Part shown: positions 1,417 to 24,000 of the stretch, one piece after another | Layout of the letters: each line of letters starts with the position of its first letter | How positions within the stretch are numbered: position 1 is the first letter of the stretch | The notes under the pieces: generated by a model | Told to the model about the DNA's origin: nothing | Databases searched by the model: none | The model's input: the letters and a program-made list of their open reading frames with translations, nothing else | Program-made: the position numbers and the translations under genes | Assembly: GCF_000003815.2 (NCBI RefSeq) | Contig: NC_049989.1 | Location: forward strand, 22,719,737-22,783,736 | Length of the DNA: 64,000 bases | Reading direction: 5' to 3' | Source of the DNA: Branchiostoma floridae | Taxonomy: Eukaryota > Chordata > Leptocardii > Amphioxiformes > Branchiostomatidae

Positions 1417-1424
1417 CTGACACC

Positions 1425-1657: not shown

Positions 1658-1757
1658 NNNNNNNNNNNNNNNNNNNNNNNNNNNNNNNNNNNNNNNNNNN
1701 NNNNNNNNNNNNNNNNNNNNNNNNNNNNNNNNNNNNNNNNNNNNNNNNNNNNNNNNN
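1658..1757. other. Assembly gap (100 N)
   Basis: Run of exactly 100 N. By comparison with the right arm the missing DNA corresponds to roughly 16530-17480, about 1 kb of minisatellite and possibly a LINE fragment, so the true gap may be far from 100 bases. Confidence 1.
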
Positions 1758-2610: not shown

Positions 2611-2615
2611 ACATG

Positions 2616-2910
2616 TTTGTGATAGCTACTCCAGTATTGTGTTAGTTGCTGCATACGGGCGCTGCCATGTTTGTGAAAGCTACTCCAGTATTGTGTTAGT
2701 TGCTGCATACGGGCGCTGCCATGTTTGTGAAAGCTACTCCAGTATTGTGTTAGTTGCTGCATACGGGCGCTGCCATGTTTGTGATAGCTACTCCTGTATT
2801 GTGTTAGTTGCTGCATACGGGCGCTGCCATGTTTGTGATAGCTACTCCTGTATTGTGTTAGTTGCTGTATATGGGCGCTGCCATGTTTGTGATAGCTACT
2901 CCTGTATTGT
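2616..2910. repeat. ~54 bp minisatellite between divergent genes (left)
   Basis: About six units of a ~54 bp repeat containing GTGTTAGTTGCTGCATACGG and GCTGCCATGTTTGTGA. The right arm has about four units at 15060-15254 and three at 15945-16106. A further diverged unit lies at 3705-3745, just upstream of the TRMT44 coding start. Confidence 0.88.
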
Positions 2911-3706
2911 CACGTAATGGACCCTTCCAGCCGAACACCATAAGCCCTGCCCCCTGTTCGATCTCGGGTTCGATTTCAAAACCTCGGTCAAAAACGGCGC
3001 GAGTTGCCAAAACATGGCCGCTGCCGCTATTAAGCTGAGGATACCGTATGACTTCGGTTTAGCTTTTTGGGCCCTGAAATCCTCTCAGAACGGGCGAAAG
3101 AAAAATGCTATGTATTCTTTGTGTAAGGCTACATCCACTGGGTACATTCGTTTGAGGAGGAGGCGTATATAGTTGCGGTCAGGGCGATATAATTTCAGTC
3201 AAAGCGGAAGCGGGAGGCGCTCCATAATATTACCTTGTTGGTGGGCAAGAGTGCCCGGTTTCTGACATGCGGTCGATGCAGGTGTAAAGCTGGGTACGTA
3301 TATCTGTGACAGGTTTTCTACCGTGTTTGTTGCATGCATGACATTTAAATATAAGCTCAGGAGAAAAACCACACTAAGAAGAAAGCAGCTCGGTCACTCA
3401 GTCTCACGGAGAGGGAGCTTGTACCACATGCCAAAATATAAGACCCTAATACAAAGTCCGCTAGTGCAGAGTCCCGTCTCTTCTACGTACACTGCTTTAC
3501 ATGTACATCCTGCCCAGGAACTAAGTAATGCTATGTAGCGCCTACCCTTCCCAAAACAACTATACTCAGAAGGTGTAGTCTTCAACAAAAAAGGCATAGC
3601 ATTTCTCTTTGGCCATTTCTGTCCCACTAGGGCTGTTTTTGACCGAGTATTCGAAATAGAACGGGGGTTCTATTTGTTCGATATGGCGTTCGGCTGGAAG
3701 GGTCCG
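2911..3706. mobile_element. Foldback-like element with long inverted repeats
   Basis: An ~800 bp element whose ends are inverted (GGACCCTTCCAGCCGAACAC at 2919 and its complement at about 3685-3705). Imperfect inverted homology continues inwards for at least 200 bp; for example AAATGCTATG near 3104 pairs with CATAGCATTT near 3595. It is inserted in the 54 bp minisatellite. The same element occupies 14250-15057 in the right arm, so it predates the separation of the arms. No transposase frame is visible. Confidence 0.75.
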
Positions 3707-3818
3707 TTGTGTTAGTTGCTGCATACAGGCACCGCCATGTTTGTGTCAAGAGCAGACCAGCAGGGTTCAAACTTCTTTCAGAGGCCACAACTTGACCGTT
3801 GGGCGCGTGGGTGTCGAC

Positions 3819-6800
3819 ATGCTGGCGTGTGACCTTCCCGAGGCAGGGGTCAGGCGGGTCAGTGCCCTCCCGACCGCTGCGGAACCAGCCGGGTTCTGGA
3901 GCGGCGTGGCCGTGTGGGTGGACAAACCGCACGTGGTGAACCGCAGGCTGACCGGCGCAAAGGAAGTGGCCAGGATTTGGACCAATCACAGAGTCATCAG
4001 CACCATGCTGCAGCAGCCTAGGTGGGGCGCTAGTTTCTTTGTGTGACTTCTTTTCACAATTTTGCAGTTTCAGTCTCCCCTGGTTTCAAAAAGGTTTTAC
4101 ACATAAATATGGTATGTTTTAGGTAATTCAATCTCTACAACTGGATAAAAATAGTGATTTACCTCTGGATGTTTTGAGTGACATCCATCACTCTTCTTCT
4201 GCATCACTAGAATGAACTGGCGGAACACAATTCAGTGCAAGTACATCTAACTAGAAAAAAAACCTATTGAACCTGTAAGGATTGTATGCAAATGTCACTC
4301 ATGTAAATCTCAAAAGTATATAAATGTTAACCTGGATGTCTAAGCTTCATAAAGATATGTTGTTTTTTGTTTGTGTTCTCCACACACCTGCCTCAGGGTC
4401 TTTGCTGGGTTATCTGAAGAAAGCCTGCAGAAAAGACTGGCAGATATGAAGATGGAGGGAAGAAATGAAGCGGAAGGAGATGATTTAGAACTAATCATAA
4501 GGGACTTGTTACCACGGCAACTGGAAAGGGCCAAGGTTGTCAGGGAAGTCGTTGTTTTGGGTGAGAAATGTCAAACTACTTATTTTATTAATATTAGTAC
4601 AAAATAATCAGCATCATTATAGCATTTCCCAGCATCAAAGGTTCTATTTGGTTCATCCCTGTGCAGTATGGGTAAGGAGGTGAAGTCTGCCAGCTGTTTG
4701 TGATTTCCTTGTTGTCGTCTTTAGATCACCCCCGCATCACGGCGTGGTTCATTCCCCTGGGCAGCAGTTGCCATGGCGACACAGAAAGTGAGCAGAGCTA
4801 CAAGTCCTACAGATTTGTCTACTCTGAAGATCAAACAGGGAAAACGTACGTCTCCAACTGTCTCTCATACTTACCAACCTGAGATGGCTAGCTTCCATGT
4901 CTTCCTGTAGGTCTTAAAGAATAGACTGTTGGTGTGTTTGGTCAGATTATGCCATGGTCAAGGTTGATGTTTCTTGTTTAGGGAGAAGACAAGCTGGTCC
5001 AGTCTTATTCATATAACTGCTAATCTCAATTGGCCGTTGTGTATAGTTTGCCACCTTTTGTGAAAAACTATTAGAAGTTGCTGACCTGTTTGTTTTGCTG
5101 CAGTATTGCACTAGACATCCTGAGTCCACCAGGGGTCGCTGCTGCACACAGTCCTGACAGGAACTGCAGTACAGGGGGCGCTGCTGTACACAGTCCTGAC
5201 AGGAACTGCAGTACAGGGGGCGCTGCTGTGCACACTGCTGAAGATGACAGGAAGTGCAGCCCAGGGGGCGCTGCTGTACACAGTGCTGAAGATGATGGCA
5301 TCTGCAGTCCAACTACAAAGTAAGTTTCTTCTTTCAGCTATAATGGTCAGGATGTTTTGAATGCTGTTGATATGCAAGAAATGATTCTTCTGTGTTTCTT
5401 GCCTATCCCTCACCTAATGAGGAACAACATAGCCAAGTGGTCGGCTGATGTTGCTCAGGATGATTATTGATGAGGTAGGTTATTGATGAGTTAAGTTATT
5501 AATGAGTTAGGTTATTGATGAGTTAGGTTATTGAGGTGTACATCCCCACAGATGGCTGTGCGACCATCTGCTCCCCAAGATAGCCAAGTGGTCGGCTGAT
5601 GTTGCTCCTGGCGGCCGGAGGCGGGTGCAGGCCCTGGTGCCCATCGACAGGTACAACATCAGGTACCAGCAGCTGAAGAGGAAGTACGGCAGGAGGATGA
5701 TGCAGGTCTGGCCGGACGTCACCACCACAGATCCAGAGAAGTTTGTGTACGAGGATATCGCCATAGCAACGTATCTCCTGGTAACCTGGTTACAAACATC
5801 ACTTTGCTTTTGAGAAATTTTCCCCTTCTTGCATTTGTGTGAACGAATGAGTTATGAATGAAAAAAAAAAACATTTTTTCTCAACCACCCTTGCTTTATT
5901 TCTACCGATATTTTGGTGACTGTCTGTCACCTTCAGGGCAATTCTGACTGGTTCATATTGTACTGCAGCGTTGCTGCTTACAGTTACACTGTTTACGTTT
6001 GGGACTGCAGTGTATATGTAAAAATTTGACAAAACAATCACTGTACATTATGTACATACTTGATGTTTGTGACCGCATCTGTAGCTGTAAGCAGCGCCAC
6101 CTAGAGCTGCAGTACAAAGTGACAGCAAAACGTTGGTGTAAATTATCAAAAGTTAAAAGAGTCTCTTTATTCTGTTTCCTGTCAGCTGTTGTGGGAGGAA
6201 GAGAGAAGCCGACTGAGGCTTGAGGAGAAGCAGTCGTTTGTAGACCTGGGCTGCGGCAACGGACTTCTGGTGTACATCCTGGCTCAGGAGGGGGTGAGAC
6301 ATCCTTACATAGTTAGTGTATATCCTGGCACAGGAGGGGGTGAGACATCCTTACATAGTTAGTGTATATCCTGGCACAGGAGGGGGTGAGACATCCTTAC
6401 ATAGTTAGTGTATATCCTGGCACAGGAGGGGGTGAGACATCTGTGCTTTGTTCTTTTGTTCTTACTTTAGACTTACTTAGACTTACATCAAGCCTCCACA
6501 TTAAAGCTCTGAGAACAACGGATGCATGACAAACTGGATAGTGTGTGAGTGCTAGGTCCTGCATGACAAACTGTATAGTGTGTGAGTGCTAGGTCCTGCA
6601 TGACAAACCGTATAGTGTGTGAGTGCTAGGTCCTGCATGACAAACCGGATAGTGTGTGAGTGCTAGGTCCTGCATGACAAACCGTATACTGTGTAAGTGC
6701 TAGGTCCTGCATGACAAACCGTATAGTGTGTGAGTGCTAGGTCCTGCATGACAAACCGTATACTGTGTAAGTGCTAGGTCCTGCATGACAAACCGTATAC

Positions 6801-9800
6801 TGTGTAAGTGCTAGGTCCTGCATGACAAACCGTATACTGTGTAAGTGCTAGGTCCTGCATGACAAACCGTATAGTGTGTGAGTGCTAGGTCCTGCATGAC
6901 AAACCGTATAGTGTGTGAGTGCTAGGTCCTGCATGACAAACCGTATAGTGTGTGAGTGCTAGGTCCTGCATGACAAACCCGTATACTGTGTAAGTGCTAG
7001 GTCCTGCATGACAAACCGTATAGTGTGTGAGTGCTAGGTCCTGCATGACAAACCGTATAGTGTGTGAGTGCTAGGTCCTGCATGACAAACCGTATAGTGT
7101 GTGAGTGCTAGGTCCTGCATGACAAACCGTATAGTGTGTGAGTGCTAGGTCCTGCATGACAAACCGTATAGTGTGTGAGTGCTAGGTCCTGCATGACAAA
7201 CCGTATAGTGTGTGAGTGCTAGGTCCTGCATGACAAACCGTATAGTGTGTGAGTGCTAGGTCCTGCATGACAAACCGGATAGTGTGTGAGTGCTAGGTCC
7301 TGCATGACAAAGCGTATAGTGTGTGAGTGCTAGGTCCTGCATGACAAACCGGATAGTGTGTGAGTGCTAGGTCCTGCATGACAAACCGTATACTGTGTGA
7401 GTGCTAGGTCCTGCATGACAAACAGGATAGTGTGTGAGTGCTAGGTCCTGCAGGACAAACCGGATAGTGTGTGAGTGCTAGGTCCTGCAGGACAAACCGG
7501 ATAGTGTGTGAGTGCTAGGTCCTGCATGACAAACCGTATACTGTGTGAGTGCTAGGTCCTGCATGACAAACAGGATAGTGTGTGAGTGCTAGGTCCTGCA
7601 GGACAAACCGGATAGTGTGTGAGTGCTAGGTCCTGCAGGACAAACCGGATAGTGTGTGAGTGCTAGGTCCTGCATGACAAACCGTATACTGTGTGAGTGC
7701 TAGGTCCTGCATGACAAACAGGATAGTGTGTGAGTGCTAGGTCCTGCATGACAAACCGTATACTGTGTGAGTGCTAGGTCCTGTGTGAGTGCTAGGTCCT
7801 CCCATGTTGACACATTAGGCAGCAAGCCTTCTCCACTCAGGGCAGTTTTGGGCAGGGTTTCTGATTTCTTCAGACTAACCACCAGTTGGTCGAGGTCCCT
7901 TTGTAGTACATGTCTCTAAGTTAGTTTTGGTCTTCCTCACCTTTATTCACATAAATTCCCTCCATGGTTCCAGCATCCTGGAAAGGGGATTGATGTGAGG
8001 AAACGCACCACGTGGGACATCTTCGGACAGGGCACAGTTTTACAGGTACCCACTTACTATCTACAGATGGCACAGTTTTACAGGTAACCCACTTACTATC
8101 TACTGACAGGGCACAGTTTTACAGGTAACCACTTACTGTCTACAGACAGGGCACAGTTTTACAGGTAACCCACTTACTGTCTACAGATAGGGCACAGTTT
8201 TACAGGTAACCCACTTACTGTCTACAGACAGGGCACAGTTTTACAGGTAACCACTTACTATCTACTGATGGCACAGTTTTACAGGTAACCACTTACTGTC
8301 TACGGACAGGGCACAGTTTTACAGGTAACCACTTACTGTCTACAGACAGGGCACAGTTTTACAGGTAACCCACTTACTGTCTACAGACAGGGCACAGTTT
8401 TACAGGTAACCCACTTACTGTCTACAGACAGGGCACAGTTTTACAGGTAACCCACTTACTGTCTACAGACAGGGCACAGTTTTACAGGTAACCACTTACT
8501 GTCTACAGACAGGGCACAGTTTTACAGGTAACCCACTTACTGTCTACAGACAGGGCACAGTTTTACAGGTAACCCACTTACTGTCTACAGATAGGGCACA
8601 GTTTTACAGGTAACCACTTACTATCTACGGACAGGGCACAGTTTTACAGGTAACCACTTACTATCTACAGATAGGGCACAGTTTTACAGGTAACCCACTT
8701 ACTATCTACGGACAGGGCACAGTTTTACAGGTAACCCTCTTACTATCTGGTATTGTAATATTAAAGGGGCATTCCACTCCACACAGGAGTTTTATTTTCC
8801 GATAGATATTAATTTTAGGAAGTAATAAAGGCATACTACTTCACATTATACGATAATGTACCCAGTTGCTCCACGTGCCTCAAAAGCATCCAGTATTCTA
8901 CTTAACTCCCCAAGTACCCTCTAATTGAATTAATTCTATGGCTGAATACAGTTATGCAAAACTTTTAGGTAAGGTTACAAAATTAATTTCAGGATCGCTA
9001 AGAAATCTCGTCTTGTTATGTGTTCTTATGCTATCTTATGAGCAATTTGCTTTCGCGGTGTGCCAAAAATATGCACGATAAATAAAGTGTCTATGCATAT
9101 AGGGAATGCATGGGTAGGGTCTGCATAGGTTTAGTGAGTGGCATGTTGTTTTAAAAAACACACATCGTGCAATTTATCCCAAGGTGAATTCCACAACATT
9201 CGGCTGATTATGTATTCATTGACACATTATCTATTGGAAAACACCACCAACTTCTGGAGTGGAATGCCCCTTCAATTGGTACTTAAATCATTGATGAAGT
9301 ATTGATGACTTGAATTATAAATATTTTAAGTTATTGATTGAGTCGTTTGCAAAGAGTCACGTTATTGCTAAGTAAGGTTCTGACAAGTTCAGTCATTGAC
9401 AAGTTAAGTTAAGCTAATGACATTTTAATTTATTGGCAAGTTACTGGTGAAACTTTTGCTTAGTTACATTATTGAAGAGTTAAGTTATTGATGACCCTAT
9501 TGCCGAGTTAGGTGATTGATAAGTTATTGATCATGTAAGTTATTGATGTTTTTCTAGGAAGAGCCAATCACGCCATCTGACAGCTGCCTGTTCCCGGACT
9601 CTGATTGGCTAATTGGTAACCATAGTGATGAGCTGACTCCATGGATACCCGTCATAGCTGCCAGGTGAGAAGTTTCCTGTGATGTCACTGTGACATCATC
9701 CTGATTGCTTGTGTTATGGAAGAATTAAAAGTAAATAAAATAATTTGTTCTCTGGTAAACTGTGTTCTGTATGTTCAGTCATTTGTTCAACCTTCCTGAC

Positions 9801-10143
9801 CACTTAGATTTCCTTACGAAGGCAACATTCTTTCCTTGCCAAACTTTTGCAAATGTAGTCCACAACAAAGCTGTGTGGCCCAAGGGCTGCATCAGAGATG
9901 GGTGCCGCCCAATGCACCATCTGGTGTGGGACTTTAACGTTTAACTTCATCTCCCCCAGGTCCTCCTACACCGCCCGGTACTTTGTTCTGCCCTGCTGCC
10001 CGCATGACTTCCACGGCAGGTTTGCGCGCACACACACGGCCACCAGCCACTACAGGAACTACCTGGACTATGTGTGCTCCATCGGGCAGGCCTGCGGGTT
10101 CACTGTGGAGGAGGACAGCCTCAGGATCCCATCCACTAAGAGG
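3819..10143 (+). CDS. TRMT44: TRMT44 tRNA(Ser) Um44 2'-O-methyltransferase, left copy, C-terminus missing
   Basis: Nine exons join in frame: 3819-4021, 4397-4560, 4725-4845, 5104-5319, 5552-5780, 6186-6293, 7974-8045, 9558-9664 and 9960-10143, giving exactly 468 codons, with AG before and GT after each. The family (METTL19/TRMT44, yeast Trm44) 2'-O-methylates U44 of tRNA-Ser in the cytoplasm. Diagnostic segments are GFWSGVAVWVDKPHVVNRRL near the start, DPEKFVYEDIAIATYLL, the SAM-binding motif FVDLGCGNGLLVYIL, GIDVRKRTTWDIFG, DWLIGNHSDELTPWIPVIAA, RYFVLPCCPHDFHGR and EDSLRIPSTKR. The start is the first ATG in the open frame that has homology nearby; the upstream frame is open but begins without an ATG. 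Vertebrate proteins run roughly 200 residues further, ending in a CCCH zinc-finger region. That part is absent here, probably lost in the repeats and gaps at 10.1-11.95 kb. Exon 4 contains a coding minisatellite. Several exon ends are tandemly repeated into the introns. Confidence 0.93.
4140..4262. repeat. Half of a foldback element in TRMT44 intron 1
   Basis: The segment with GTGACATCCATCACTCTTCT and CACTAGAATGAA matches one arm of the full palindromic element at 37960-38150. The right TRMT44 copy has the same half at about 13600-13725, so it predates the duplication. Confidence 0.7.
5429..5456 (+). repeat. 28 bp copy of TRMT44 exon 5 inside intron 4
   Basis: These 28 bases are identical to exon positions 5580-5607 (AGCCAAGTGGTCGGCTGATG is the core). 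The right arm has no such copy in its intron, and its exon has a diverged version of the same block. Confidence 0.85.
6240..6440 (+). repeat. Minisatellite copying the end of TRMT44 exon 6 and its donor
   Basis: The last bases of exon 6 plus the donor (GTGTAYATCCTGGC, CAGGAGGGG|GTGAGAC) and about 20 bases of intron are repeated, giving the real donor at 6294 and three further copies downstream with a ~45 bp period. Every copy keeps GGGGGTGAGAC. Confidence 0.9.
6520..7800. repeat. 37 bp minisatellite, ~34 copies, TRMT44 intron 6
   Basis: Unit of 37 bp containing GTGAGTGCTAGGTCCTGCAT and GACAAACCGTATA, repeated about 34 times with scattered single-base variants (GTATAGTG, GGATAGTG, GTATACTG). 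The variants form short blocks, suggesting amplification of multi-unit segments. Confidence 0.97.
8024..8745 (+). repeat. 40-41 bp minisatellite copying the end of TRMT44 exon 7 and its donor
   Basis: About 18 units, each starting with the last ~20 bases of exon 7 (GGGCACAGTTTTACAG) followed by GTAACC and a ~20 base intron piece. The authentic donor is GTACCC at 8046; the copies have GTAACC, closer to the donor consensus than the original. Confidence 0.95.
8761..9275. mobile_element. MITE with ~20 bp terminal inverted repeats, TRMT44 intron 7
   Basis: Ends are inverted: TTAAAGGGGCATTCCACTCC at 8761 and the complement of GGAGTGGAATGCCCCTTCAA at the right. It is about 515 bp, AT-rich and non-coding. 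The target duplication is not clear. There is no comparable right-arm position because the right TRMT44 copy stops before this intron. Confidence 0.82.
9276..9557. repeat. Degenerate ~18 bp AT-rich repeats, TRMT44 intron 7
   Basis: Loose repeats of GAGTTAAGTTATTGATGA type. A related short run lies at 5460-5535 in intron 4. Confidence 0.7.
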
Positions 10144-10668
10144 GTCAGTCTCACTTTCACTTTCACAGTCTCAGGGTCAGTCTCACTTTCACTTTCACAG
10201 TCTCAGGGTCAGTCTCACTTTCACTTTCACAGTCTCAGGATCCCATCCACTAAGAGGGTCAGTCTCACTTTCACTTTCACAGTCTCAGGGTCAGTCTCAC
10301 TTTCACTTTCACAGTCTCAGGATCCCCTCCACCAAAAGGGTCAGTCTTACTTTCACTTTCACAGCCTCAGGGTCAGTCTCACTCTCACTTTCACAGTCTC
10401 AGGGTCAGTCTCACTTTCACTTTCATAGTCTCAGGGTCAGTCTCACTTTCACAGCCTCAGGATCCCATCCACCAAGAGGGTCAGTCTCACTTTCACTTTC
10501 ACAGTCTCAGGGTCAGTCTCGCTTTCACTTTCACAGTCTCAGAATCCCATCCACCAAGAGGGTCAGTCTTACTTTTACTTTTACAGTCTCAGGATCCCAT
10601 CCACCAAAAGGGTCAGTCTCACTTTCACTGTCACAGTCTCAGGGTCAGTCTCACTTTCACTTTCACTA
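10126..10668 (+). repeat. Composite minisatellite copying the end of TRMT44 exon 9 and its donor
   Basis: Units mix the exon 9 end (CTCAGGATCCCATCCACTAA, GAGG|GTCAGTC) with a shorter TCTCACTTTCACTTTCACAG motif. At least five further copies of the LRIPSTKR-coding exon end follow the original, each with the donor-like GGGTCAGTCT. The array is open in two plus frames, but the translation is only repeat sequence and is not called as coding. Confidence 0.9.
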
Positions 10669-10744
10669 GCGGCTGCTAGGTCAGACCGGGCCCCAGATTT
10701 TTAAAAACTCAGAGTTATTTAACATCAACCCAGGACCGGGTGAC

Positions 10745-11030
10745 AATTAGACGCCATGACCTACCTGTGAAACACTGCGAGGTACCCCTGCAGTGACCTA
10801 CCTGTGAAACACTGCGAGGTACCCCTGCAGTGACCTACCTGTGAGAACACTGCGAGGTACCCCTGCAGTGACCTACCTGTGAAACACTGCGAGGTACCCC
10901 TGCAGTGACCTACCTGTGAGAACACTGCGAGGTACCCCCTGGCCAAGGCTGCACCCACTGCAGGCACCCACTGCAGGCACCCACTGCAGGCACCCACTGC
11001 AGGCACCCACTGCAGGCACCGGCGCAACTG
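10745..11030. repeat. Two short minisatellites, 37 bp x5 and 13 bp x6
   Basis: First an array with unit containing GACCTACCTGTGAAACACTG and CGAGGTACCCC (about five copies), then CAGGCACCCACTG repeated about six times. The second one may be a G/C-rich remnant of an exon edge; no coding homology is visible. Confidence 0.92.
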
Positions 11031-11849
11031 TGACCATAACGTTATCTGTTATAATGTTAGGGTGGGATCTGAACCTTTATCTGTTATAACGTTAGGGTGG
11101 GATCTGAACCTTTATCTGTTATAATGTTAGGGTGGGATCTGAACCGTTATCTGTTATAACGTTAGGCTGGGATCTGAACCGTGATCTGTTATAACGTTAG
11201 GGTGGGATCTGAACCTTTATCTGTTATAACATTAGGCTGGGATCTGAACCTTTATCTGTTATAACGTTAGGCTGGGATCTGTTATAACGTTAGGGTGGGA
11301 TCTGAACCTTTATCTGTTATAACGTTAGGGTGGGATCTGAACCTTTATCTGTTATAACATTAGGGTGGGATCTGAACCTTTATCTGTTATAACGTTAGGT
11401 GGGATCTGAACCTTTATCTGTTANNNNNNNNNNNNNNNNNNNNNNNNNNNNNNNNNNNNNNNNNNNNNNNNNNNNNNNNNNNNNNNNNNNNNNNNNNNNN
11501 NNNNNNNNNNNNNNNNNNNNNNNTCTGTTATAATCTTAGAGTGGGATCTGAACCGTTATCTGTTATAACGTTAGGGTGGGATCTGAACCTATATCTGTTA
11601 TAACGTTAGGGTGGGATCTGAACCTTTATCTGTTATAACGTTAGGGTGGGATCTGAACCTTTATCTGTTACAATCTTAGGGTGGGATCTGAACCTTTATC
11701 TGTTATAATCTTAGAGTGGGATCTGAACCTTTATCTGTTATAACGTTAGGGTGGGATCTGAACCTTTATCTGTTACAATCTTAGGGTGGGATCTTAACCT
11801 TTATCTGTTATAATCTTAGAGTGGGATCTGAACCTTTATCTGTTATAAT
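11031..11849. repeat. ~35 bp minisatellite, >20 copies, broken by a gap
   Basis: Unit of about 35 bp containing TTATCTGTTATAACGTTAGG and GTGGGATCTGAACC. The same array continues on both sides of the gap 11424-11523 and runs into the gap at 11850, so its true length is unknown. Confidence 0.96.
11424..11523. other. Assembly gap (100 N)
   Basis: 100 N inside the 35 bp minisatellite; the array continues on both sides. Confidence 1.
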
Positions 11850-11949
11850 NNNNNNNNNNNNNNNNNNNNNNNNNNNNNNNNNNNNNNNNNNNNNNNNNNN
11901 NNNNNNNNNNNNNNNNNNNNNNNNNNNNNNNNNNNNNNNNNNNNNNNNN
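11850..11949. other. Assembly gap (100 N) at the inner end of the right arm
   Basis: 100 N placed exactly where homology to the left arm would continue towards TRMT44 exon 6. The missing exons 6-9 of the right copy, and the missing C-terminal exons of the left copy, could both lie here. Confidence 1.
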
Positions 11950-12040
11950 GTTGTTTTTTTCATTCATAACTCATTCGTTCACACAAATGCAAGAAGGGGA
12001 AAATGTCTCAAAAACAAAGTGATGTGCGTAGCCAGGTTAC

Positions 12041-14139
12041 CAGGAGATACGTCGCTATGGCGATGTCCTCGTACACAAACTTCTCTGGATCTGTGGTGGT
12101 GACGTCCGGCCAGACCTGCATCATCCTCCTGCCGTACTTCCTCTTCAGCTGCTGGTACAGGACGTTGTACCTGTCGATGGGCACCAGGTCCTGGACCCGC
12201 CGCCTGCCGCCCTCAACAACCTCCTCTGACCACTTGGCTATCTTAGGGAGCAGATGTTCACACAGCCATCTGTGCGGATGTACACACATCAATAACCTAA
12301 CTCGTCAAAGAATTCATATGTCAGAAAAATCATAATGGGGAAGATTTACTCACTCACACACTCAGTATCCTATCTATCGTCTGTTGTTCCTCATCAGGTG
12401 AGGGATAGGCAAGAAACACAGAAGAATCATTTCTTGTATATCAACAGCATTCAAAACATCCTGACCATTATAGCTGAAAGGAGAAACTTACTTTGTAGTT
12501 GGACTGCAGATGCCATCATCTTCGGCACTGTGTACTGCAGCGCCCCCTGGGCTGCACTTCCTGTCATCTTCAGCACTGTGTACAGCAGCGCCCCCTGGGC
12601 TGCACTTCCTGTCATCTTCAGCACTGTGTACAGCAGCGCCCCCTGGGCTGCACTTCCTGTCAGGACTGTTTGCAGCAGCGCCCCCTGAACTGCAGTTCCT
12701 GTCAGGACTGTGTGCAGCAGCGCCCCCTGGTGGACTCAGGATGTCTAGTGCAATACTGCAGCAAAACAAACAGGTCAGCAACTTCTAACAGTTTTTCACA
12801 AAAGGTGGCAAACTATACACAACGGCCATTTGAGATTAGCAGTTTGAGATTAGCAGTTATATGAATAAGACTGAACCAGCTTGTCTTCTCCCTAAACAAG
12901 AAACATCAACCTTGACCATGGCATAATCTGACCAAACACACCAACAGTCTATTCTTTAAGACCTACAGGAAGACATGGAAGCTAGCCATCTCAGGTTGGT
13001 AAGTATGAGAGACAGTTGGAGACGTACGTTTTCCCTGTTTGATCTTCAGAGTAGACAAATCTGTAGGACTTGTAGCTCTGCTCACTTTCTGTGTCGCCAT
13101 GGCAACTGCTGCCCAGGGGAATGAACCACGCCGTGATGCGGGGGTGATCTAAGGACAACAACAAGGCAATCAAACAGCTGGCAGACTTCACCCCCTTACC
13201 CATACTGCACAGGGATGAACCAAATAGAACCTTTGATGCTGGGAAATGCTATAATGATGCTGATTATTTTGTATTCATAAAATAAGTAGTTTGACATTTT
13301 CTCACCCAAAACAACGACTTCCCTGACAACCTTGGCCCTCTCCAGTTGCCGTGGTAACAAGTCCCTTATGATTAGTTCTAAATCATCTCCTTCTGCTTCA
13401 TTTCTTCCGTCCATCTTCATATCTGCCAGTCTTTTCTGCAGGCTTTCTTCAGATAACCCAGCAAAGACCCTGAGGCAGGTGTGTGGAGAACACAAACAAA
13501 AAACAACATATATTTATGAAGCTTAGACATCCAGGTAAACATTTATATACTTTTGAGATTTACATTTGCATACAATCCTTACAGGTTTAACAGTTATTTT
13601 TTTTCTAGTTAGATGTACTTGCACTGAATTGTGCTCTGCCAGTTCATTCTAGTGATGCAGAAGAAGAGTGATGGATGTCACTCAAAACATCCAGAGGTAA
13701 ATCACTATTTTTATCCAGTTGTAGAGATTGAATTGTCTAAAACAAACCATATCTATGTGTAAAACTTTTTTGAAACCAGGGGAGACTGAAACTACAAAAT
13801 TGTGAAAAGAAGTCACACAAAGAAACTAGCGTCCCACCTAGGCTGCTGCAGCATGGTGCTGATGACTCTGTGATTGGTCCAAATCCTGGCCACTTCCTTT
13901 GCGCCGGTCAGTCTGCGGTTCACCACGTGCGGTTTGTCCACCCACACGGCCACGCCGCTCCAGAACCCGGCTGGTTCCGCAGCGGTCGGAATGGCACCGA
14001 CCTGCCTGGCGGCTGCCTCAGAAAGGTCACCGACCCGCCTGACCCCTGCCTCGGGCAGGTCACCGACCCGCCTGACCCCTGCCTCGGGCAGGTCACCGAC
14101 CCGCCTGACCCCTGCCTCGGGAAGGTCACACGCCAGCAT
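12041..14139 (-). CDS. TRMT44: TRMT44 right copy, first five exons only
   Basis: Minus-strand exons 13838-14139, 13306-13469, 13028-13148, 12492-12755 and 12041-12269 match left exons 1-5. Exons 2, 3 and 5 have identical lengths. Exon 1 is 99 bases longer, from extra copies of an 11-residue unit (DLPEAGVRRVG), and exon 4 is 48 bases longer, from one extra 16-residue unit; both keep the frame. Exon 5 differs from the left copy in a cluster (KIAKWSEEVVEGGRRRVQD against KIAKWSADVAPGGRRRVQA). Exons 6-9, including the SAM-binding motif, are missing because the sequence meets a gap at 11949. Without them the copy could not be an active methyltransferase; it is either incomplete in the assembly or a truncated duplicate. 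Confidence 0.9.
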
Positions 14140-14249
14140 GTCGACACCCATGCGCCCGGCGGTCAAGTTGTGGCTTCTGAAAGAAGTTTGAACCCTGCTG
14201 GTCTGCTCTTGACACAAACATGGCGGCGCCTGTATGCAGCAACTAACAC

Positions 14250-15057
14250 AATGGACCCTTCCAGCCGAACGCCATATCGAACAAATAGAACCACCTGTTC
14301 TATTTCGAATACTCGGTCAAAAACAGCCATAGTGGGACAGAAATGGCCAAAGAGAAATGCTATGCCTTTCTTGTTGATTACACACAAAGACTACACCTTC
14401 TGAGTAAAGTTGTTTTGGGAAGGGTAGGCGCTCCATAGCATTACTTAGTTCCTGGGCAGGATGTACATGTAAAGCAGTGTACGTAGAAGAGACGGGACTC
14501 TGCACTAGCGGACTTTGTATTAGGGTCTTATATTTTGGCATGTGGTACAAGCTCCCTCTCCGTGAGTGACCGAGCTGCTTTCTTCTTAGTTTGGTTTTTC
14601 TCCTGAGCATGTATGTAAATGTCATGCATGCAACAAACACGGTAGAAAACCTGTCACAGACATACGTACCCAGCTTTACACCTGCATCGACCGCATGTCA
14701 GAAACCGGGCACTCTTGCCCACCACCAAGGTAATATTATTATGGAGCGCCTCCCGCTTCCGCTTTGACTGAAATTATATCGCCCTGACTGCAACTATATA
14801 CGTCCCCTCCTCAAATGACTATACCCAGTGGATGTAGCCTTACACAAAGAATACATAGCATTTTTCTTTCGCCTGTTCTGAGAGGATTTCAGGGCCCCAA
14901 AAGCTTTAGACCGAAGTCATACGGTATCCTCAGCTTAATAGCGGCAGCAGCCATGTTTTGGCAACTCGCGCCGTTTTTGACCGAGGTTTTGAAATCGAAC
15001 CCGAGATCGAACAGGGGGCGGGGCTTATGGTGTTCGGCTGGAAGGGTCCATTACGTG
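14250..15057. mobile_element. Foldback-like element, right-arm copy
   Basis: Same element as 2911-3706, in reverse. Its ends are ATGGACCCTTCCAGCCGAAC at about 14251 and the inverted copy at about 15030-15050. It is shared by both arms. Confidence 0.75.
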
Positions 15058-15254
15058 ACAATACAGGAGTAGCTATCACAAACATGGCAGTGCCCGTATG
15101 CAGCAACTAAAGCAATACAGGAGTAGCTATCACAAACACGGCAGCGCCCGTATGCAGCAACTAACACAATACTGGAGTAGCTATCACAAACATGGCAGCG
15201 CCCGTATGCAGCAACTAAAGCAATACAGGAGTACCTATCACAAACATGGCAGCG
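15058..15254. repeat. ~54 bp minisatellite, right arm, part 1
   Basis: About four units of the ATGCAGCAACTAA / TATCACAAACATGGCAGCGC repeat, interrupted by the insertion at 15255 and continuing at 15945-16106 with about three more units. Confidence 0.88.
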
Positions 15255-15944
15255 CACGGGCATACTTACCTCATAGGCCCTGTCAGAAGTTGGTGGGGTC
15301 ACGTGGTCTTTTGGTTACGTGTGCAACGCATGCCGAGTGCGTGCCCTCAGTCGGTTTTTGTCGCAAAATCGCACTTCGGGTACCTTCAGCATCCGTCGGA
15401 AATCACCGTCGGAACTTTCCGCTCTCACTCGGGTTCTTCGGGTCACGCACGGAACACCGACCCGGGCGCTTCAGCACGGGCGATCCGACAACAATACCTT
15501 CGCCTACCGCCGAGGGGCTGACCGCACTCTCGGACCTCTCTCTCATTTAACAAAAGTGGTGTCGACGTGCGGTTTTCGGCATCATATTCGTCACTAATCT
15601 ACCTACCCGGGATATTACTGTGATTTTGGACACCGCTTTGGTTTTTTTTTCTATATCATCTCAAAGTTGGGACATACAAACATGGCGAACGTACCTTGAA
15701 AGTGACCTTCTTTCAGCGAAATTTCTAGAAACCACACCGACTGACACAGATGGCGCCTTCCTTTTACGCCCCTCTAACGTTTCCGCATGGAAAACAATTT
15801 ACGGCGCATGTTTGGACATGTCTGAGAGGCAAAGTTTCGCCGAAATTTTGAATCGGCAAATCGAGCCGCCATTTTTCCAAATGCCGCACATGAGGCGTTT
15901 TGTCGTAAATGGACCAGACCAAATTCTGACAGGTGTGTGCCCGT
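15255..15944. mobile_element. 690 bp insertion, right arm only, family unknown
   Basis: It interrupts one unit of the 54 bp minisatellite, with GCAGCG duplicated on both sides (15249-15254 and 15945-15950). The ends carry short inverted repeats (ACGGGCA near 15256 and TGCCCGT at 15938-15944), followed further in by a second inverted pair (CTGTCAGAA and TTCTGACAG). The 191-residue open frame across it has no recognisable domain and runs into the minisatellite, so it is not called as a gene. It is a likely non-autonomous DNA transposon. Confidence 0.65.
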
Positions 15945-16106
15945 GCAGCGCCCGTATGCAGCAACTAAAGCAATACAGGAGTACCTATCACAAACATGGC
16001 AGCGCCCGTATGCAGCAACTAACACAATACTGGAGTACCTATCACAAACATGGCAGCGCCCGTATGCAGCAACTAACACAATACAGGAGTAGCTATCACA
16101 AACATG
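15945..16106. repeat. ~54 bp minisatellite, right arm, part 2
   Basis: About three units of the same array after the 690 bp insertion. Confidence 0.85.
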
Positions 16107-16740
16107 TAATCAGCGCACACGTAGGACCTCAATTACATTTACAAAAATTATACTGGTTCGTGGCAAGCCAGCCAGCGTCATGCGCCACCAGCTGACTGCT
16201 TTATAACGTTACCTGTGCAATGGAGAGGATCAAACACTTCCCAGTAACAAAGTATTTTCTACAAGTCTTAATTACCAAGGCCAAGGTGGAACCGGAAATC
16301 ACTTTAAATCTGCTGAAATACCAGTAAATTCTGAACTCTCGCTGCAGACAGCTGCAGACGAACTTTCACATCCGGCGAGATGACGCCATCTTTGCCACCT
16401 TTGACCTTTACAACCATGGCAACAAAACGCTATTATATAATAATATTGTTGCATAACTTATAAATGAATACACAATGCCTGAAGAGATGTCTCGTCCAAA
16501 ATACAATGATATAATGTCTAGAAGCTTTCAAAAGATTTTAATATAGTATTTTGGACGAAAAACCCTTGAGCAAACTGGATATTTCAGACTCTTGCGCTTG
16601 TGATTGCACTGGCGCCATTTTTGATCAGGGTCAGAGTGACAGGGCAGGAAACGTTTCGGTCGTCTGACAAGTTTCAGTCATTGGAAAGTGTTCCGTTGAT
16701 TCGTCACGCAGAAAAGGGGACGAGGAGGCTGAATCTCCGT
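16107..16740. other. Intergenic DNA between the divergent genes, right arm
   Basis: This matches 1758-2168 of the left arm in reverse up to about 16530 and then continues into sequence lost in the left gap. The stretch ending CTCCGTG|GTATGAAG at about 16740 could be a 5' exon of the membrane-protein gene; there is no further support. Confidence 0.45.
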
Positions 16741-17640
16741 GGTATGAAGATTTTCTGTGTCAGAAAAGGCTGATGTTGGGTGATGTGAAGCTTTTTTTGT
16801 GTCAGACAAGGATTATTTTGGTGGTGTGAAGCTTTTTTTGTGTCAGAAAAGATGAGTTTTGGTGGTGCGAAGAATTTTTGTATCAGAAAAGATGATTTTT
16901 GGTCGTGTGAAGATTTTTTGTGTCAGAAAAAGATGATTTTTGGTGGTGCGAAGATTTTTTGTGTCAGAAAAAGATTGTTGTTGTTGTTGTTGTCCTCGTT
17001 TAACGTCTATTATTTCGCTAGACGTGGTCTCTTGGTGCTGAGTAACACATGGTTCGCTTTTGAGTCAATAGTCTCTCATGGTATTTAACTCTTGGTTCCT
17101 TGTGCTTGAGAGTTGCTGGAGGAGTTTCTAGGAGAGTACGTCGAGGAGAAGGCCATGTACATCTGTTTGTTGATTCCTTCTGAAAGGTCTTCTCTCATTC
17201 CAGCTAGCGTGGTGATGTCCGTGTCTCTGCTGTCCTCTGCTGTGTTGTATGTCTCATATATGTTCTCCACTTCTAGCAGCATGTGTTGTCTTTCCTTTTC
17301 ATAGCGAGGGCAGTGGTACAGGAAGTGGTTGGTGGTCTCCACAGCACCGCAGTTAGTGCAGCTAGGTGAGATTTCAGGGTTCATCCAGTTTTGATAGGAC
17401 TTTTGATGACTTTTGGTGGTGTGAAAATTTTTTGTGTCAGAAAAAGATGATTTTTGGTGGTGCGAAGATTTTTTTGTATCAGAAAAAGATGACTTTTGGT
17501 GGTGTGAAAATTTTTTGTGTCAGACGAAGCTGATTTTTGGTGGTGTGGAGAAGCTGATTTTGCATGGTGTGAGGATCTTTTGTATTGTCTTTGGGTGGTG
17601 TGAAGATTTTTGTAATGGCGAGTTCTTATTTTAACATCCT
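16740..17640. repeat. ~40 bp minisatellite (right arm), split by a LINE
   Basis: Repeats containing GTGTCAGAAAAAGATGATTT and GGTGGTGCGAAGATTTTT run from about 16740 to 16975 and resume at about 17405-17640. The last unit supplies the polypyrimidine/AG context (GGTGTCAG) of the acceptor used at 17650. Confidence 0.9.
16976..17404 (-). mobile_element. LINE 3' fragment inserted in the minisatellite
   Basis: The minus strand encodes the end of a non-LTR retrotransposon ORF2, with a zinc-knuckle-like CTNCGAVETTNHFLYHCPRY (Cys, Cys, His, Cys spacing). It finishes in an (ACA)n tail, seen as TTG repeats at 16976-16992. It is strongly 5'-truncated. The matching left-arm position lies in the gap at 1658-1757, so presence or absence there cannot be judged. 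Confidence 0.85.
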
Positions 17641-17649
17641 TGGTGTCAG

Positions 17650-19999
17650 GAAAGATGTGTCTGTCGTGTGGAGACGGCGTGAGACTGATCCCGCTGCTGT
17701 GGATGCTGACCATGCCGATGTACGGGTCGTTCCTGGGCCCCGAGCCCGTCCTGCGCCTGTCAATCATGCTGATGATCCATGCAGGGGTCGGAGCAGCTCT
17801 GCCACTCGGACTGGTGAGCATTTGTTTGTTTGTTTGTTTGTTTGTGTAACATGCCAATGTACGGGTCATTCCTGGGCCCCGAGCCTGTCCTGCGCCTGTC
17901 AATCATGCTAATGATCCATGCAGGGGTCGGAGCAGCTCTGCCACTCGGACTGGTGAGCATTTGTTTGTTTGTTTGTTTGTGTAACATGCCGATGTACGGG
18001 TCGTTCCTGGGCCCCGAGCCCATCCTGCGCCTGTCAATCATGCTGATGATCCATGCAGGGGTCGGAGCAGCTCTGCCACTCGGACTGGTGAGGATTTGTT
18101 TGTTTGTTTGTGTAACATGCCGTACAGATCATTCCTGGGCTGCAGCCTGTGACTGACCAACATTATCAAAAGGCCAAAGCTATATTCCTGTCAATAAGAT
18201 GGTTTATTCCTGTCAATAAGAATGCTTTGAACTATACTAGATCTGTCTATAAGGCTTTATTTTGAACAGCTTTATCAAAGATTTTTTGCTTTCAAGTCTG
18301 AAGAAGATAAGAGCCTGGTCCCTGGAATGATATAGTAGTTTGTGTAACCATGCCGATTCCTCTACCCTTCTGTCTGCAGGCCTGCGCCGCACCTGCAGGT
18401 GGGACTGGTGAGGGGTTGTTTGTTTGTGTAACCATGGTGATCCTTCTGTCTGCAGGCTTTTGTGGCGCCGTACCTGCAGGTGGGAGCTCTGGCTCTGATC
18501 CTCTCGCTGCCCGTGAACCTGCTGCCGTACGCGCTCGTCTGGCTGTACGACAAACTGCTACTGGTGTCGGAGCCGGCGCTGCTGCTGGTGGAGGCGGCGC
18601 AGGTGGTGAGACTGGCCATGGCTGGCAGCGAGCTGGCGCTGGGGGAGATAGAGGAGCGGCCGGTGCTGATAAAGGTCTGTACACACATGCACACTCACAC
18701 ACACACACACACTCATGCATACACACACACATAGAGTACTAAAGAAACTGGCGCTGGGGGGGATAGAGGAGCGGCCGGTGCTGATAAAGGTCTGTACACA
18801 CACATGCACACTCATACTCACACACACTCATGCACACTCACACACACACTCACACACACACACACACTGCGCAAGTGGTGAGGCTGGCCATGGCCGGCAG
18901 CGAGCTGGTGCTGGGGGGATAGAGGAGCGGCCGGTGCTGATAAAGGTCTGTACACACACATGCACACTCATACACACTCATGCACACACACACTCATGCA
19001 CACTCATGCATACACACACGCACACACACACTCATGCATACACACACACATGCACACTCACACTCATGCATACACACACACATGCACACTCATACGCACA
19101 CTCATGCACACACACAGTAGCTGGCACTGGGGGGGATAGAGGAGCGACCGGTGCTGATAAAGGTCTTACACACTCATGCACACACACACTCATGCATACA
19201 CACACACACACACATGCACACACACACACACTCATGCATACACACACACATGCACACACACACACACTCACACACACTCATGCACACTCACACTCATGCA
19301 CACTCACACTCACACACACTCATGCACACTCATACGCACACACACAGACTCACACACACACACACATGCACACACACACACACACTGCGCAGGTGGTGAG
19401 GCTGGCCATGGCCGGCAGCGAGCTGGCGCTGGGGGGATAGAGGAGCGGCCGGTGCTGATAAAGGTCTGTACACACACATGCACACTCATACACACTCATG
19501 CACACACACACACACAGGCACACTCATGCACACACTCATGCACACTCATACGCACACACACACTCACACACACACACTCATGCACACACACACACTCATG
19601 CACACTCATGCACACGCACACACACACTCATGCACACACACACGCACACACACACACACACACACTCATGCATACACGCACACACAGAGTACTAAAGAAA
19701 CTAGCGCTGGGGGGATAGAGGAGCGGCCGGTGCTGATAAAGGTCTGTACACACTCATGCACACTCAAACTCACACACACTCATGTGATGTGTGTGTGTGT
19801 GTGTGCATGTATGTGTCTGTGTGTGTGTGTGTGTGTGTGCATGTTTGTGTGTGTGTGTGCGTGTGTGTGTGTGTGCATTTATGTGTCTGCGTGTGTGTGT
19901 GCATGTTTGTGTGTGTCTGTGCGTGTGTGTGTTTGTGTGCATGTTTATGTTTGTGTGTGTGTGTGTGTCTGTGCGTGTGTGTGTTTGTGTGCATGTTTA

Positions 20000-20034
<35 letters not shown>

Positions 20035-20323
20035 ATGTGTAGGTTTGTAATCAGCACTGTGCTTGCTGTGTGTGCATGTTTGTGTGTGCATGTTTGTGTG
20101 TATGCATGTATGTGTGTGTGTGTCTGTGTGTACATGTTTGTGTTTGTGTGTGCATGTTTGTTTGTTTGCATGTTTGTGTGTGTGGTGTACATGTGTAGGT
20201 TTGTGTTTAACAATAGTCCGTTACCCCACAGAGCCTGATACTGGGCGTGACTGCTGTCTCCTATGTCATCAGCGCTGCGATCGCTGTGGTTCTGTACAGC
20301 CATGGCAGCTCCGCCTTAAACTG
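17650..20323 (+). CDS. Multi-pass membrane protein gene, right copy (partial)
   Basis: Three exons are supported: 17650-17813 (acceptor GTGTCAG, donor CTG|GTGAGC), 18456-18674 (acceptor TCTGCAG, donor AAAG|GTCTGT) and 20232-20323 (acceptor CCCACAG, donor CTG|GTAAGT). The protein segments are almost wholly hydrophobic: [20 protein letters not shown] in the first; [20 protein letters not shown], then the conserved-looking acidic turn [15 protein letters not shown], in the second; [20 protein letters not shown] in the third. At least four membrane helices are likely. I do not recognise the family. Exon edges are duplicated: the exon 1 donor end three times, the exon 2 acceptor region once, the exon 2 donor end five times within the CA repeat. 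The gene is truncated downstream by the gap at 20907. Confidence 0.72.
17690..18160 (+). repeat. ~140 bp minisatellite copying exon 1 and its donor
   Basis: Three units, each with about 100 bases of exon 1 (ATGTACGGGTCGTTCCTGGG onwards), the donor CTG|GTGAG and a (GTTT)n intron piece, then a partial unit at about 18114. The left arm has two full units. The added copies lack an obvious acceptor, so they look like extra donors rather than extra exons. Confidence 0.92.
18675..20225. repeat. CA/TG microsatellite with embedded exon fragments
   Basis: The plus strand is (CA)n-rich from about 18675 to 19790 and then switches to (TG)n up to about 20215, so the halves can pair as a long hairpin. Five copies of the exon 2 donor end (GCTGGGGGGATAGAGGAGCG then GATAAAGGTCTGTA) are embedded at about 18748, 18868-18944, 19121, 19385-19463 and 19702. 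Two of them reach back to the GCGCARGTGGTGAGGCTGGC part of the exon. The apparent His/Thr- and Cys/Val-rich reading frames are repeat artefacts. Confidence 0.95.
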
Positions 20324-20666
20324 GTAAGTGGTCAGGTTGGTGTCAGGGCATCTGGGATGGAATGGCCCCTTATGGGAGAGAGATAGCTAGAATTGATGTA
20401 AGGGTATGAAGGTAAGGGGTGTATTACTGACATCTATTTTGTTTAGGGCTATTGCATTAAGATATTCACTTAAGCTTGAAATGTTTCAAGTAGGTATGAG
20501 AGCTTTTAGATTGTGTGTGCATGCACTTGTTTGTGTGCATGTGTGTGAATGCACTTTGTGTGTGTGTGTGTGCGTGCATGTGTGTGTGCGCGTGTGTGTG
20601 CATGCACTGTGTGTGTGTGTTTGTGTGCATGCACTTGTTTGTGTGTGTGTGTGTGTGCATGCTCAT
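20324..20666. other. Intron with a second TG microsatellite
   Basis: Downstream of the last recognised membrane-protein exon. It holds a (TG)n run at about 20505-20660 and nothing else I can identify. Confidence 0.6.
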
Positions 20667-20906
20667 CAGGGCTCCAGACTAACTTTTTGACCTAGGAGCA
20701 TGGCGCTCCTAACTCCTAAAACTTAGGAGCGCCAGCAAAAAGTTAGGAGCACCACTATGAAAGGTTGGGAGCACAAGCAAACGTCTGAAGCCATACAAAA
20801 TATTACTCCAATAATCAATGTTTTTGACTAGAGGTGGGTATGGCTTAAAGAATTAATTAGGGGTGTTATATATTATATATAGTTACCCAGTAACCAAACA
20901 AGAAAC
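20667..20906. mobile_element. hAT-like element end, truncated by gap
   Basis: It begins CAGGGCTCCAGACTAACTTT and contains repeated TTAGGAGC motifs. The CAGGG start suggests a hAT non-autonomous element; the other end is lost in the gap. Confidence 0.55.
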
Positions 20907-21006
20907 NNNNNNNNNNNNNNNNNNNNNNNNNNNNNNNNNNNNNNNNNNNNNNNNNNNNNNNNNNNNNNNNNNNNNNNNNNNNNNNNNNNNNNNNNNNNNN
21001 NNNNNN
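20907..21006. other. Assembly gap (100 N)
   Basis: 100 N between the membrane-protein gene and the CysD gene; both genes may continue into it. Confidence 1.
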
Positions 21007-21098
21007 TTCACAATATGACAGAGGCATCAGCAAGTCAATATGTAGGATCTAATCGTTTAGAACCTAGATCTGATCACAAACAATTACATGGTACTTAC

Positions 21099-24000
21099 GA
21101 GGGCAGCAGAAGCGAACTTCATAGTCGAGACACTTGCCGTCGGGCTGATCTTTCATCCTGCACACGAACCCGGTTGTGACGTCATAGAACGCAAAGACTT
21201 CTCCCGTTTGAAATGCGTCCTGCCCGGTAGCGATGACGCGGGCCTGGATGTCGGTCGGTGAGCGGCAGATCTGCCCTGGGTTCTCCGGACGGAGATGGGA
21301 AAGAACCTCCCAGTCACCAGTCGTTCCAGGGTTGTCCCGATCAAACCAGGGTGTCCAATTTGTGCATGCTGTTATGTGGAAACAACAAGAACTTGGAGTA
21401 TTCTTCTACTCAACGTGTACTGTTTAAATCCGCCATGGTTTTAGTGTTAACCCTAGTTAGACTGGCATTGTTGTGAATCTCGGACGGGGTGAGGGGACGG
21501 ATTTGGAGGCCAACCCCTTCTAACAAACGAAACTCCTAAACAATTTATCATATAACAATTACATAATACATTTGACGTCATTATAACTTATAGGACGTCA
21601 TTATAACGACATCAATGTGATTGTATTGACTGGAATCATAAAAAAAAAGAGTTTTCCTAGAAACCTTTCAGGTATGCTTCAAACATGGAGTGTACATTAC
21701 AAAATAGTTATGTCAGCTACGAGTTCTCCTGTCAATAAAATGACGTCATACATGTTTGCGATACCAGTTAAATGTTAGCCGATGACTTCATTAAATAGGC
21801 GTAATTTATGCATTCTAGATGTTAAGATATAAAAAAAAACTTAATTGCATAAGAAAGACTTAATTTCGAAGCCGTAGGTACTTCTTCGTGTAATGATATA
21901 GCTATAATGAAGCAAGGAAACCTAAAGAAATACATTGTAAGAAGAGAAATGAGCCATTTGGTCAAAAATACCTATAAACAATAGGTTGCAATGGTTAAGC
22001 AAAAATAGTTTTTCAAACACCATATTTTTCAAATTGTTGCTAACCAAATGTTGGGAAGAGTCATCAAATTTAGTGACTCTAGCCTCAGTCGTTCGGATGT
22101 TATAAATATAAAATTTGGAGCAGGCCTTACACCCCTTCCTCTGATTATAAGATACAAAGCTATATGTACCTGCCTTATGGTTCTCATGACTTAGACTGCA
22201 TTACTGGAATATTTACATTCTTGTGTCTAACTGTTAAGATGTACCTTAAACAATGTATTGAAACACTACTTGAGAGGGTAGCAAAATGTACTTACGAGGG
22301 CAACAGAAACGAACTTCATACTCCAGGCACATCTCGCCATCGTTCTGTTGCCTGTTTACGCAGGCGAAGCCGTTTGTCGTGTCGTACCAGTGGATAACCT
22401 GCCCTGTCAGCGACGCCTCCACTTGTGTGCTGATGACGCGCGCGTGCACGGCTGTAGGGTTGAAACAGATCTGGCCAGGGTTTTCAGGGCGGAGATGGAC
22501 CAGCGCTTCCCAGTCACCGGTGGCAGAAGGATTATCACGGTCGAACCATGGCGTCCAGGACCCGTCAGGGCAGTCTGGAACTGTAAACAAGTCACACGTG
22601 AGCCATGTATGAGTCACACATGAGTCATGCGTGAGTCACGGTCGAACCAGGGCGTCCAGGACCGTCAGGTAGGGCAGTCTGGAACTGTAAACAAGTCACA
22701 CATGAGTCGAGGTTAAACCATGGCGTCCGGGACCGTCAGGGCAGTCTAGAACTGTAAACAAGTCACACATGAGTCGAGATTGAACCATGGCGTCCGGGAC
22801 CAGTCAGGACAGTCTGGAACTGTACACAAGTCACACATGAGTCATGTATGAGTCACAAATGAGTCATGCATGAGTCACGGTCGAACCAGGGCGTCTGGAA
22901 CTGTACACAAGTCACACATGAGTCACGGTCGAACCATGACGTCCAGGACCCGTCAGGGCATTCTAGAACTATAAACAAGTCACACATAAGTCACGGTCGT
23001 TCCATGGCGTCCAGGACCGTCAGGCAGGGCAGTCTGGAACTATAAACAAGTCACACATGAGTCGAGGTTGAACCATGGCGTCCAGGACCGTCAGGGCAGT
23101 CTAGAACTGTAAACAAGTCACACATTAGTCGAGATTGAACCATGGCGTCCGGGACCAGTCAGGACAGTCTGGAACTGTACACAAGTCACACATGGGTCAC
23201 GGTTTACCCACGGCGTCCAGGACCCGTCAGGGCATTCTGGAACTGTAAACAAGTCACACATGAGTCACAGTTGAACCATGGCGTTAAGGACCCGTCGGGG
23301 CAGTCTGGAACGAAAAACAAGTCACACATGAAACACAGTTGAACCATGGCGTCCAGGACCCGTTAGGGCAGTCTGGAACTGTCAACATGAGTCACAGATG
23401 AACCATGGCGTCCAGGTTCCGTCAGGGTAGTCTGGAACTGTAAACAATTCGCACATGATCATGAGTCGTGGTTGAAACAGAGCATTCCGAACCCGGCAGG
23501 ACATTCTGTAACTGTGAAAAAAAGTCGCACATCATCGCCCAGGACCCTTTAGCCTTTTAGGACAGTCTGAAAACTTAGGCAATGTCGTATTATCACCTTC
23601 ACAATGAGTCGATTTTACGCTCTGGACTTTACAATACGTCACATTGCCGCGCGCCTCTGTGACAGTTGGCCCTCTGCAAATCCGGCCACGGTTCTCCTGT
23701 TGGAGGCTAATCAGAACTTCCCAGTTGACTGTCCCTGAGGGTTCGCCTTGATCTAACCAGTCCGTCCAGCTGTTGGACTTAACCCTTTACAGACAGGGAT
23801 TTTTTGGTTATCCCTGGACCGTGCAATGCCCCCTCCCCCTTCTGACTCATGAAACTCCTGAACGAATAATCGTATGGCCACTAAATGTTTAGAGAGTGAT
23901 GTGGACATAATAACCGACAATTCTAGAAAGTTGGATGCTATAATGACGTAATATGACGTAGAATGACGTCATCAATTTGACCATTGGCTGTAAACGTGAA

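Follow-up and report, generated by a model that had tools for sequence, protein, structure and literature searches.

A window of 64,000 nucleotides from Branchiostoma floridae (contig NC_049989.1; the whole stretch analysed here) contains seven loci at which the edge of an exon is repeated in tandem together with its splice site. These loci lie in three neighbouring genes and comprise the donors of exons 6, 7 and 9 of TRMT44, the exon 1 donor, exon 2 acceptor and exon 2 donor of a membrane gene, and one acceptor of a CysD gene; the count is six without the one array that has sequence in common with a neighbour. The arrays are further examples of amphioxus mirages, that is, of minisatellites spanning an exon–intron boundary. 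The phenomenon was already in print for amphioxus under that name, although an earlier reading, made from the sequence only, had presented it without one. We consider it probable that the arrays arose by slippage-type tandem duplication in array-rich genes and that their surplus copies are tolerated.

Arrays were detected across the window with Tandem Repeats Finder (TRF), which returned 102 rows, many of them overlapping. Genes were modelled manually from frame continuity and GT-AG signals, with several exon ends adjusted by eye, and copies were counted by permissive pattern matching with the true site included. TRMT44, identified by a Pfam match of its joined translated exons to PF07757 (E 6.5e-31), was modelled with nine exons on the + strand at 3762-10143, numbered as the exons are seen in the 5′ arm (arm A) of the inverted pair described below. 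The membrane gene has three exons in an open, continuous frame (17650-17813, 18456-18674 and 20232-20323), and its protein gave no match in Pfam at E 0.001 or in the PDB at E 1. For CysD, five exons were modelled on the - strand at 21099-26374, of which the one scanned matched PF13330 (E 1.8e-25). Arrays fill 44% of the TRMT44 span, 53% of that of the membrane gene and 17% of that of CysD, and the same genes also hold arrays that are wholly intronic or wholly coding. The sequence-only reading had placed arrays at named exon junctions; TRF rows were present at every one of these places, and the junctions hold on the manual gene models. Two further arrays, at 52081-52143 and 56898-56973, have a splice-like look, but no gene model was seen there by eye.

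At the exon 7 donor of TRMT44, CAG/GTA (the slash marks the exon–intron border) is retained in all 18 copies. The donor adjoining the coding frame reads GTACCC, and the inner copies start GTAACC in 17 of 17 cases. The consensus for donors is GTRAGT, which GTAACC fits one base better than GTACCC does; because the inner donors are closer to the consensus, position, not strength, would have to decide which donor is used. Read-through of the first donor runs into a stop at +39 nt in exon 7 and at +66 nt in exon 6, where pattern matching gave four copies, and the inner donors of both exons would either shift the frame or are located past the stop. At exon 9, reading through the first donor leaves the frame open for 282 nt. 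The array there holds 14 copies of GGGTCAGT, with exon-like AARAG ahead of six of them.

The exon 2 acceptor array of the membrane gene has an 81-bp unit composed of a 33-nt mini-exon and a 48-nt mini-intron, so that the array copies an entire short intron along with the exon edge on each side; its donor half is common to the exon 1 array. Arm A (21-388) contains four complete 33-nt mini-exons, all in frame and each with an acceptor and a donor. If used, a mini-exon would add 11 residues per copy; such use is hypothetical. Arm B (18370-18485) has a single mini-exon, which at 28 nt disrupts the frame; this speaks against a need for the mini-exon. The copies of the exon 2 donor are spaced 115 to 301 bp apart, with a CA-rich microsatellite in between. 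In CysD, the unit consists of intron end, acceptor and exon start, and the array is found at only one of the five modelled exons. AG is retained in 12 of the 13 aligned copies there; the outermost of the 14, at 23519, is not in the alignment.

Table 1 Exons and arrays discussed in the text, with positions in the window.
Feature	Position	Strand	Evidence
TRMT44 exon 6	6186..6293	+	Frame open from exon 5, cag acceptor, GGG/gtgaga donor; joined protein matches PF07757
Exon 6 donor array, 46 bp, 3.7 copies by TRF; exon 6 end and donor	6270..6441	+	TRF, pattern
TRMT44 exon 7	7974..8045	+	Frame, GT-AG
Exon 7 donor array, 41 bp, 18 copies of exon 7 end and donor	8019..8748	+	TRF, pattern, alignment
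TRMT44 exon 9	9960..10143	+	Frame, GT-AG; end fixed by eye
Exon 9 donor array, compound 32/50 bp	10115..10660	+	TRF, pattern, alignment
Membrane gene exon 1 end and donor array, 135/139 bp, 3 copies	17711..18111	+	TRF, pattern
Inverted-arm counterpart of membrane exon 1 donor array, 2 copies	1085..1357	-	TRF, arm alignment, pattern
Membrane gene exon 2 acceptor array, 81-bp-type unit, 2 acceptor copies	18370..18485	+	Pattern, <=8 mismatches
Inverted-arm counterpart of exon 2 acceptor array, 5 acceptor copies	21..388	-	TRF, pattern
Membrane gene exon 2 end and donor AAAG/GTCT, six copies	18633..19760	+	TRF, pattern
CysD (Mucin2_WxxW) exon, acceptor repeated upstream	22296..22580	-	PF13330, E 1.8e-25; ends by eye
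CysD acceptor array, ~68 bp, 14 copies	22520..23520	-	Pattern, <=5 edits; TRF 22632-23458
TRMT44 exon 4 with purely coding in-frame array (5130-5308)	5104..5319	+	TRF; contrast case
TRMT44 first seen exon, arm B, with coding 33-bp array (13988-14129)	13838..14196	-	TRF; contrast case
Purely intronic 37-bp array, 34 copies	6523..7800	+	TRF; contrast case

Two parts of the window, ~1-5870 (arm A) and ~11950-18485 (arm B), are inverted copies that share the same two genes, and ~6 kb carrying TRMT44 exons 6-9 lie between them. Among the 13 blocks above 150 bp in their alignment, identity was 91.7-95.7% in 12 and 87.2% in the innermost; by part, it was 76% in intron 4, as against 96-99% in introns 1-3 and an intergenic piece. 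TRMT44 exons 1-5 keep an open frame in either arm. In amphioxus, a difference of 6-7% between haplotypes is on record, and artefactual duplicates and inversions have been reported from the draft genome (PMC2632668). We infer that the arms are probably two misjoined haplotypes; alternatively, they may be a real palindrome. Because the arms are inverted copies, the arrays at 21-388 and 1085-1357 each represent a locus already counted in arm B (18370-18485 and 17711-18111, respectively), and tallying both arms as independent cases was rejected. The claim of at least six independent arrays is matched by seven junction loci, but the array that had been put at 50-400 is not separate from 18352-18432, being its inverted copy. 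Only two boundary arrays lie in both arms, and copy number differs at both (arm B versus arm A by pattern matching: 2 versus 5 at the exon 2 acceptor, 3 versus 2 at the exon 1 donor). Non-boundary arrays also vary in length between the arms. Intron 4 of arm A also has a 16-bp array and, next to it at 5425-5456, a 32-bp stretch nearly identical (97%) to a section of exon 5; this stretch is missing from the aligned intron 4 of arm B.

The two purely coding arrays of TRMT44 differ between the arms by whole codons. Arm B has 48 nt more in exon 4 (12492-12755) and 99 nt more in the first seen exon than arm A has at 3762-4021; in both exons the frame is open in both arms. The units of the boundary arrays are not multiples of three at four of the seven loci (46, 41, 32/50 and 68 bp), the 81-bp unit is, and the remaining two arrays are mixed, with spacings of 135, 139 and 140 at membrane exon 1 and the variable spacings given above at exon 2. 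This frame pattern, in which coding arrays change by whole codons and boundary units mostly do not consist of them, fits tolerance of the surplus copies.

We propose that a boundary array would start when a short segment is duplicated in tandem between two short direct repeats, of which one is exonic and the other intronic, and would then grow or shrink through slippage or unequal exchange. The copy adjacent to the coding exon is presumably the one used. Since the surplus copies would be removed with the intron, the array would be tolerated and nearly neutral, and a purely exonic array would survive only when the frame is kept. Direct repeats at the founder ends, judged by eye in four arrays, include CATGCCG at membrane exon 1 and ACAG[CT]CTCAGG at exon 9; that at exon 7 is ATCT only, too short to carry much weight. 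It had also been noted from the sequence that most arrays run away from the exon. The copies do extend into the intron, but this direction carries no information, because any copy past the donor that is used belongs, by definition, to the intron.

The frequency of boundary arrays was compared with a simulated null in which each array was collapsed to one founder unit placed at random inside its own gene span. The sample comprised 13 minisatellites listed by hand in the three gene spans, one of which (33-bp) is an array only in arm B; microsatellites at 19783-20188 and 20512-20657 were left out, as were arrays outside the gene spans (for example, 555-600, 1452-1657, 2612-2910, 3162-3201, 11042-11849 and those beyond 26632). 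A junction lay inside the founder unit in 7 of the 13 arrays versus 2.28 expected (nominal P 0.002), a post hoc figure from one region with manual models. By gene, the counts were 3/9 for TRMT44 (1.1 expected, P 0.09), 3/3 for the membrane gene (1.0, P 0.04) and 1/1 for CysD (0.14, P 0.14), and with the membrane gene omitted 4/10 versus 1.25 (P 0.03). Among non-coding arrays, 7/11 held a junction versus 2.0 expected (P 0.0006), or versus 2.4 (P 0.002) when exon-internal placement was barred. With an approximate formula in place of simulation, dropping the 81-bp array left 6/12 versus 2.0 expected (P 0.005), dropping both the 81-bp and CysD arrays left 5/11 versus 1.9 (P 0.02), and own-gene placement with margins of 0-8 gave P 0.0003 to 0.005; by the same formula, if 100 windows had been inspected, the chance of one so extreme would be 18%. 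Array length was rejected as a measure for the null: two of the spans consist of arrays to 44% and 53%, yet only 3/18 TRMT44 exon edges lie in an array, which yields an apparent depletion. Length is unsuitable because arrays grow from one unit, so that it mixes expansion with origin.

The boundary excess is a hint and no proof, because the region was chosen for showing it. The sequence-only reading had argued that neutral arrays would not be expected at splice sites so often and that duplication may start at exon ends. This is partly supported: the excess over uniformly placed founders is nominally significant, but it is post hoc, was measured in a region picked for it and is strong in no single gene.

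Several observations weigh against slippage with tolerated copies as a full account. Taken at face value, the boundary excess (7/13 versus 2.3) exceeds chance placement. At exon 6, no clean direct-repeat founder is visible, as the array units contain 12 nt without a counterpart in the right flank. Nor does plain neutrality predict the invariant column runs at two donors. One, 18 columns long, covers the exon end and GTA in all 18 copies of the exon 7 array (P 0.006, column shuffle, uncorrected); the other extends for 11 columns over the exon 9 donor in 14 copies, which were chosen by matching that stretch. The excess is what one would count in favour of founder duplications truly targeted to exon–intron boundaries, for example through errors of replication or repair connected with splicing or with a composition step at the exon end, as are its persistence across margins and among non-coding arrays and the occurrence of lancelet mirages in several unrelated genes (PMC3087553, PMC3902484). 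It was obtained post hoc, however, from three genes with manual models and a manual array list; TRMT44 alone does not go below P 0.09, CysD has an array at one exon of its five, and an 18% chance attaches to the result if 100 windows are supposed. Exon-edge targeting is thus possible but unproven, and we judge it unlikely. Quite unlikely, in our estimate, is the wider proposition that duplication in this lineage is directed at boundaries and feeds genes spare donors, acceptors and whole mini-exons; were it true, the 81-bp array with its four mini-exons would be an exon-and-intron factory in action, with alleles of different protein length.

The invariant runs bring in selection, under which the arrays would be maintained and their copies would serve as spare splice sites or regulated decoys; that selection might keep a good site among many had been raised in the sequence-only reading. 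The runs do cross the exon 7 and exon 9 donors, with CAG/GTA falling within the 18 invariant columns and GGGTCAGT found in all 14 exon 9 copies, but in each case the search pattern included the stretch. No extra conservation of the splice window itself was seen in the two arrays tested: in the exon 7 array, the window from -3 to +6 is equalled or surpassed by 22 of 41 rotations, and in the CysD array 19 of 59 windows match the acceptor window in conservation. The predicted frame shifts and the stops at the inner copies of exons 6 and 7 and the unequal copy numbers of the arms also speak against a selected role. Evidence for selection on splice sites within copies is mixed and weak, and we regard maintenance by selection as very improbable. 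Even less credible to us is an assembly artefact, in which the repeats of two haplotypes were collapsed or misjoined. The window does contain eight 100-base gaps, one of its near-identical inverted arms begins right after the gap at 11850-11949, and artefactual duplicates and inversions are on record for the amphioxus draft (PMC2632668). Misassembly may well explain the arms, yet the arms, several percent apart, share both boundary arrays with unequal copy numbers, and the PGBD5 repeats of lancelets are backed by re-examined Sanger and new Illumina data (PMC3902484).

Elsewhere in the window, a single open frame on the - strand at 30584-34192 encodes a Toll-like receptor (LRR and TIR) with a repetitive C-terminal tail encoded by an array at 30735-30961. 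A reverse-transcriptase element (RVT_1) provides an open reading frame at 46876-48921, 3.9 copies of a 469-bp unit form a satellite-like array at 35308-37133, and a 24-bp array of ~21 copies at 61317-61804 lies within an open frame of 491 residues with WEQEQGQ-type repeats.

The gain of introns and exons is a long-standing problem, and minisatellites spanning a boundary have been put forward as a source. A link between boundary-crossing duplication and intron gain is reported for potato (PMC4974935), and one with putative new introns for human segmental duplications (PMC2812944). The arrays here resemble these cases in that the duplicated segment crosses or adjoins a boundary and carries splice signals along (PMC4974935, PMC2812944); they differ in that a new intron is reported in potato and putative new introns in human, whereas none is claimed here.

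The closest known system is that of the amphioxus mirages, described in globin genes (BflGb6 and BflGb9) and, by citation, earlier in Adh3 (PMC3087553). For the globin genes, haplotypes with 6 and 3 units are described, and reverse transcription PCR (RT-PCR) suggests regular splicing (PMC3087553). A mirage is also described in PGBD5, in a paper that cites Adh and TnC (troponin C) as lacking aberrant mRNA (PMC3902484), and the RT-PCR results for Adh3 and the globins were taken by the authors to suggest undisturbed splicing (PMC3087553, PMC3902484). A genome-wide count of boundary minisatellites was not found among the open-access literature matches listed. As in mirages, a boundary is duplicated in tandem here on the donor or acceptor side, the unit spans it at all seven loci, and AG or GT is kept in many copies (18/18 exon 7 donors, 12/13 aligned CysD copies). 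Copy number differs between haplotypes there and between arms here, the arms being probable haplotypes. The Adh3 mirage is reportedly unstable in somatic tissue. Mirage units are reported to measure 10-72 bp in Adh3 and 150-160 bp in globins; at four of our seven loci the unit (46, 41, 32/50 and 68 bp) falls in the Adh3 range, those of 81 and 135-140 bp lie between both ranges, and the membrane exon 2 donors are spaced 115-301 bp apart. The arrays described here differ from the known mirages in lying in other genes, in reaching up to 18 copies at one donor, in including a unit that forms a complete mini-exon and mini-intron, and in being known from DNA alone. Together, the three neighbouring genes with their seven arrays, of which two occur in both arms with unequal copies, offer a good test bed for the mirage model, which becomes countable, as a founder preference for boundaries, and testable in RNA, as the choice among 18 near-identical donors.

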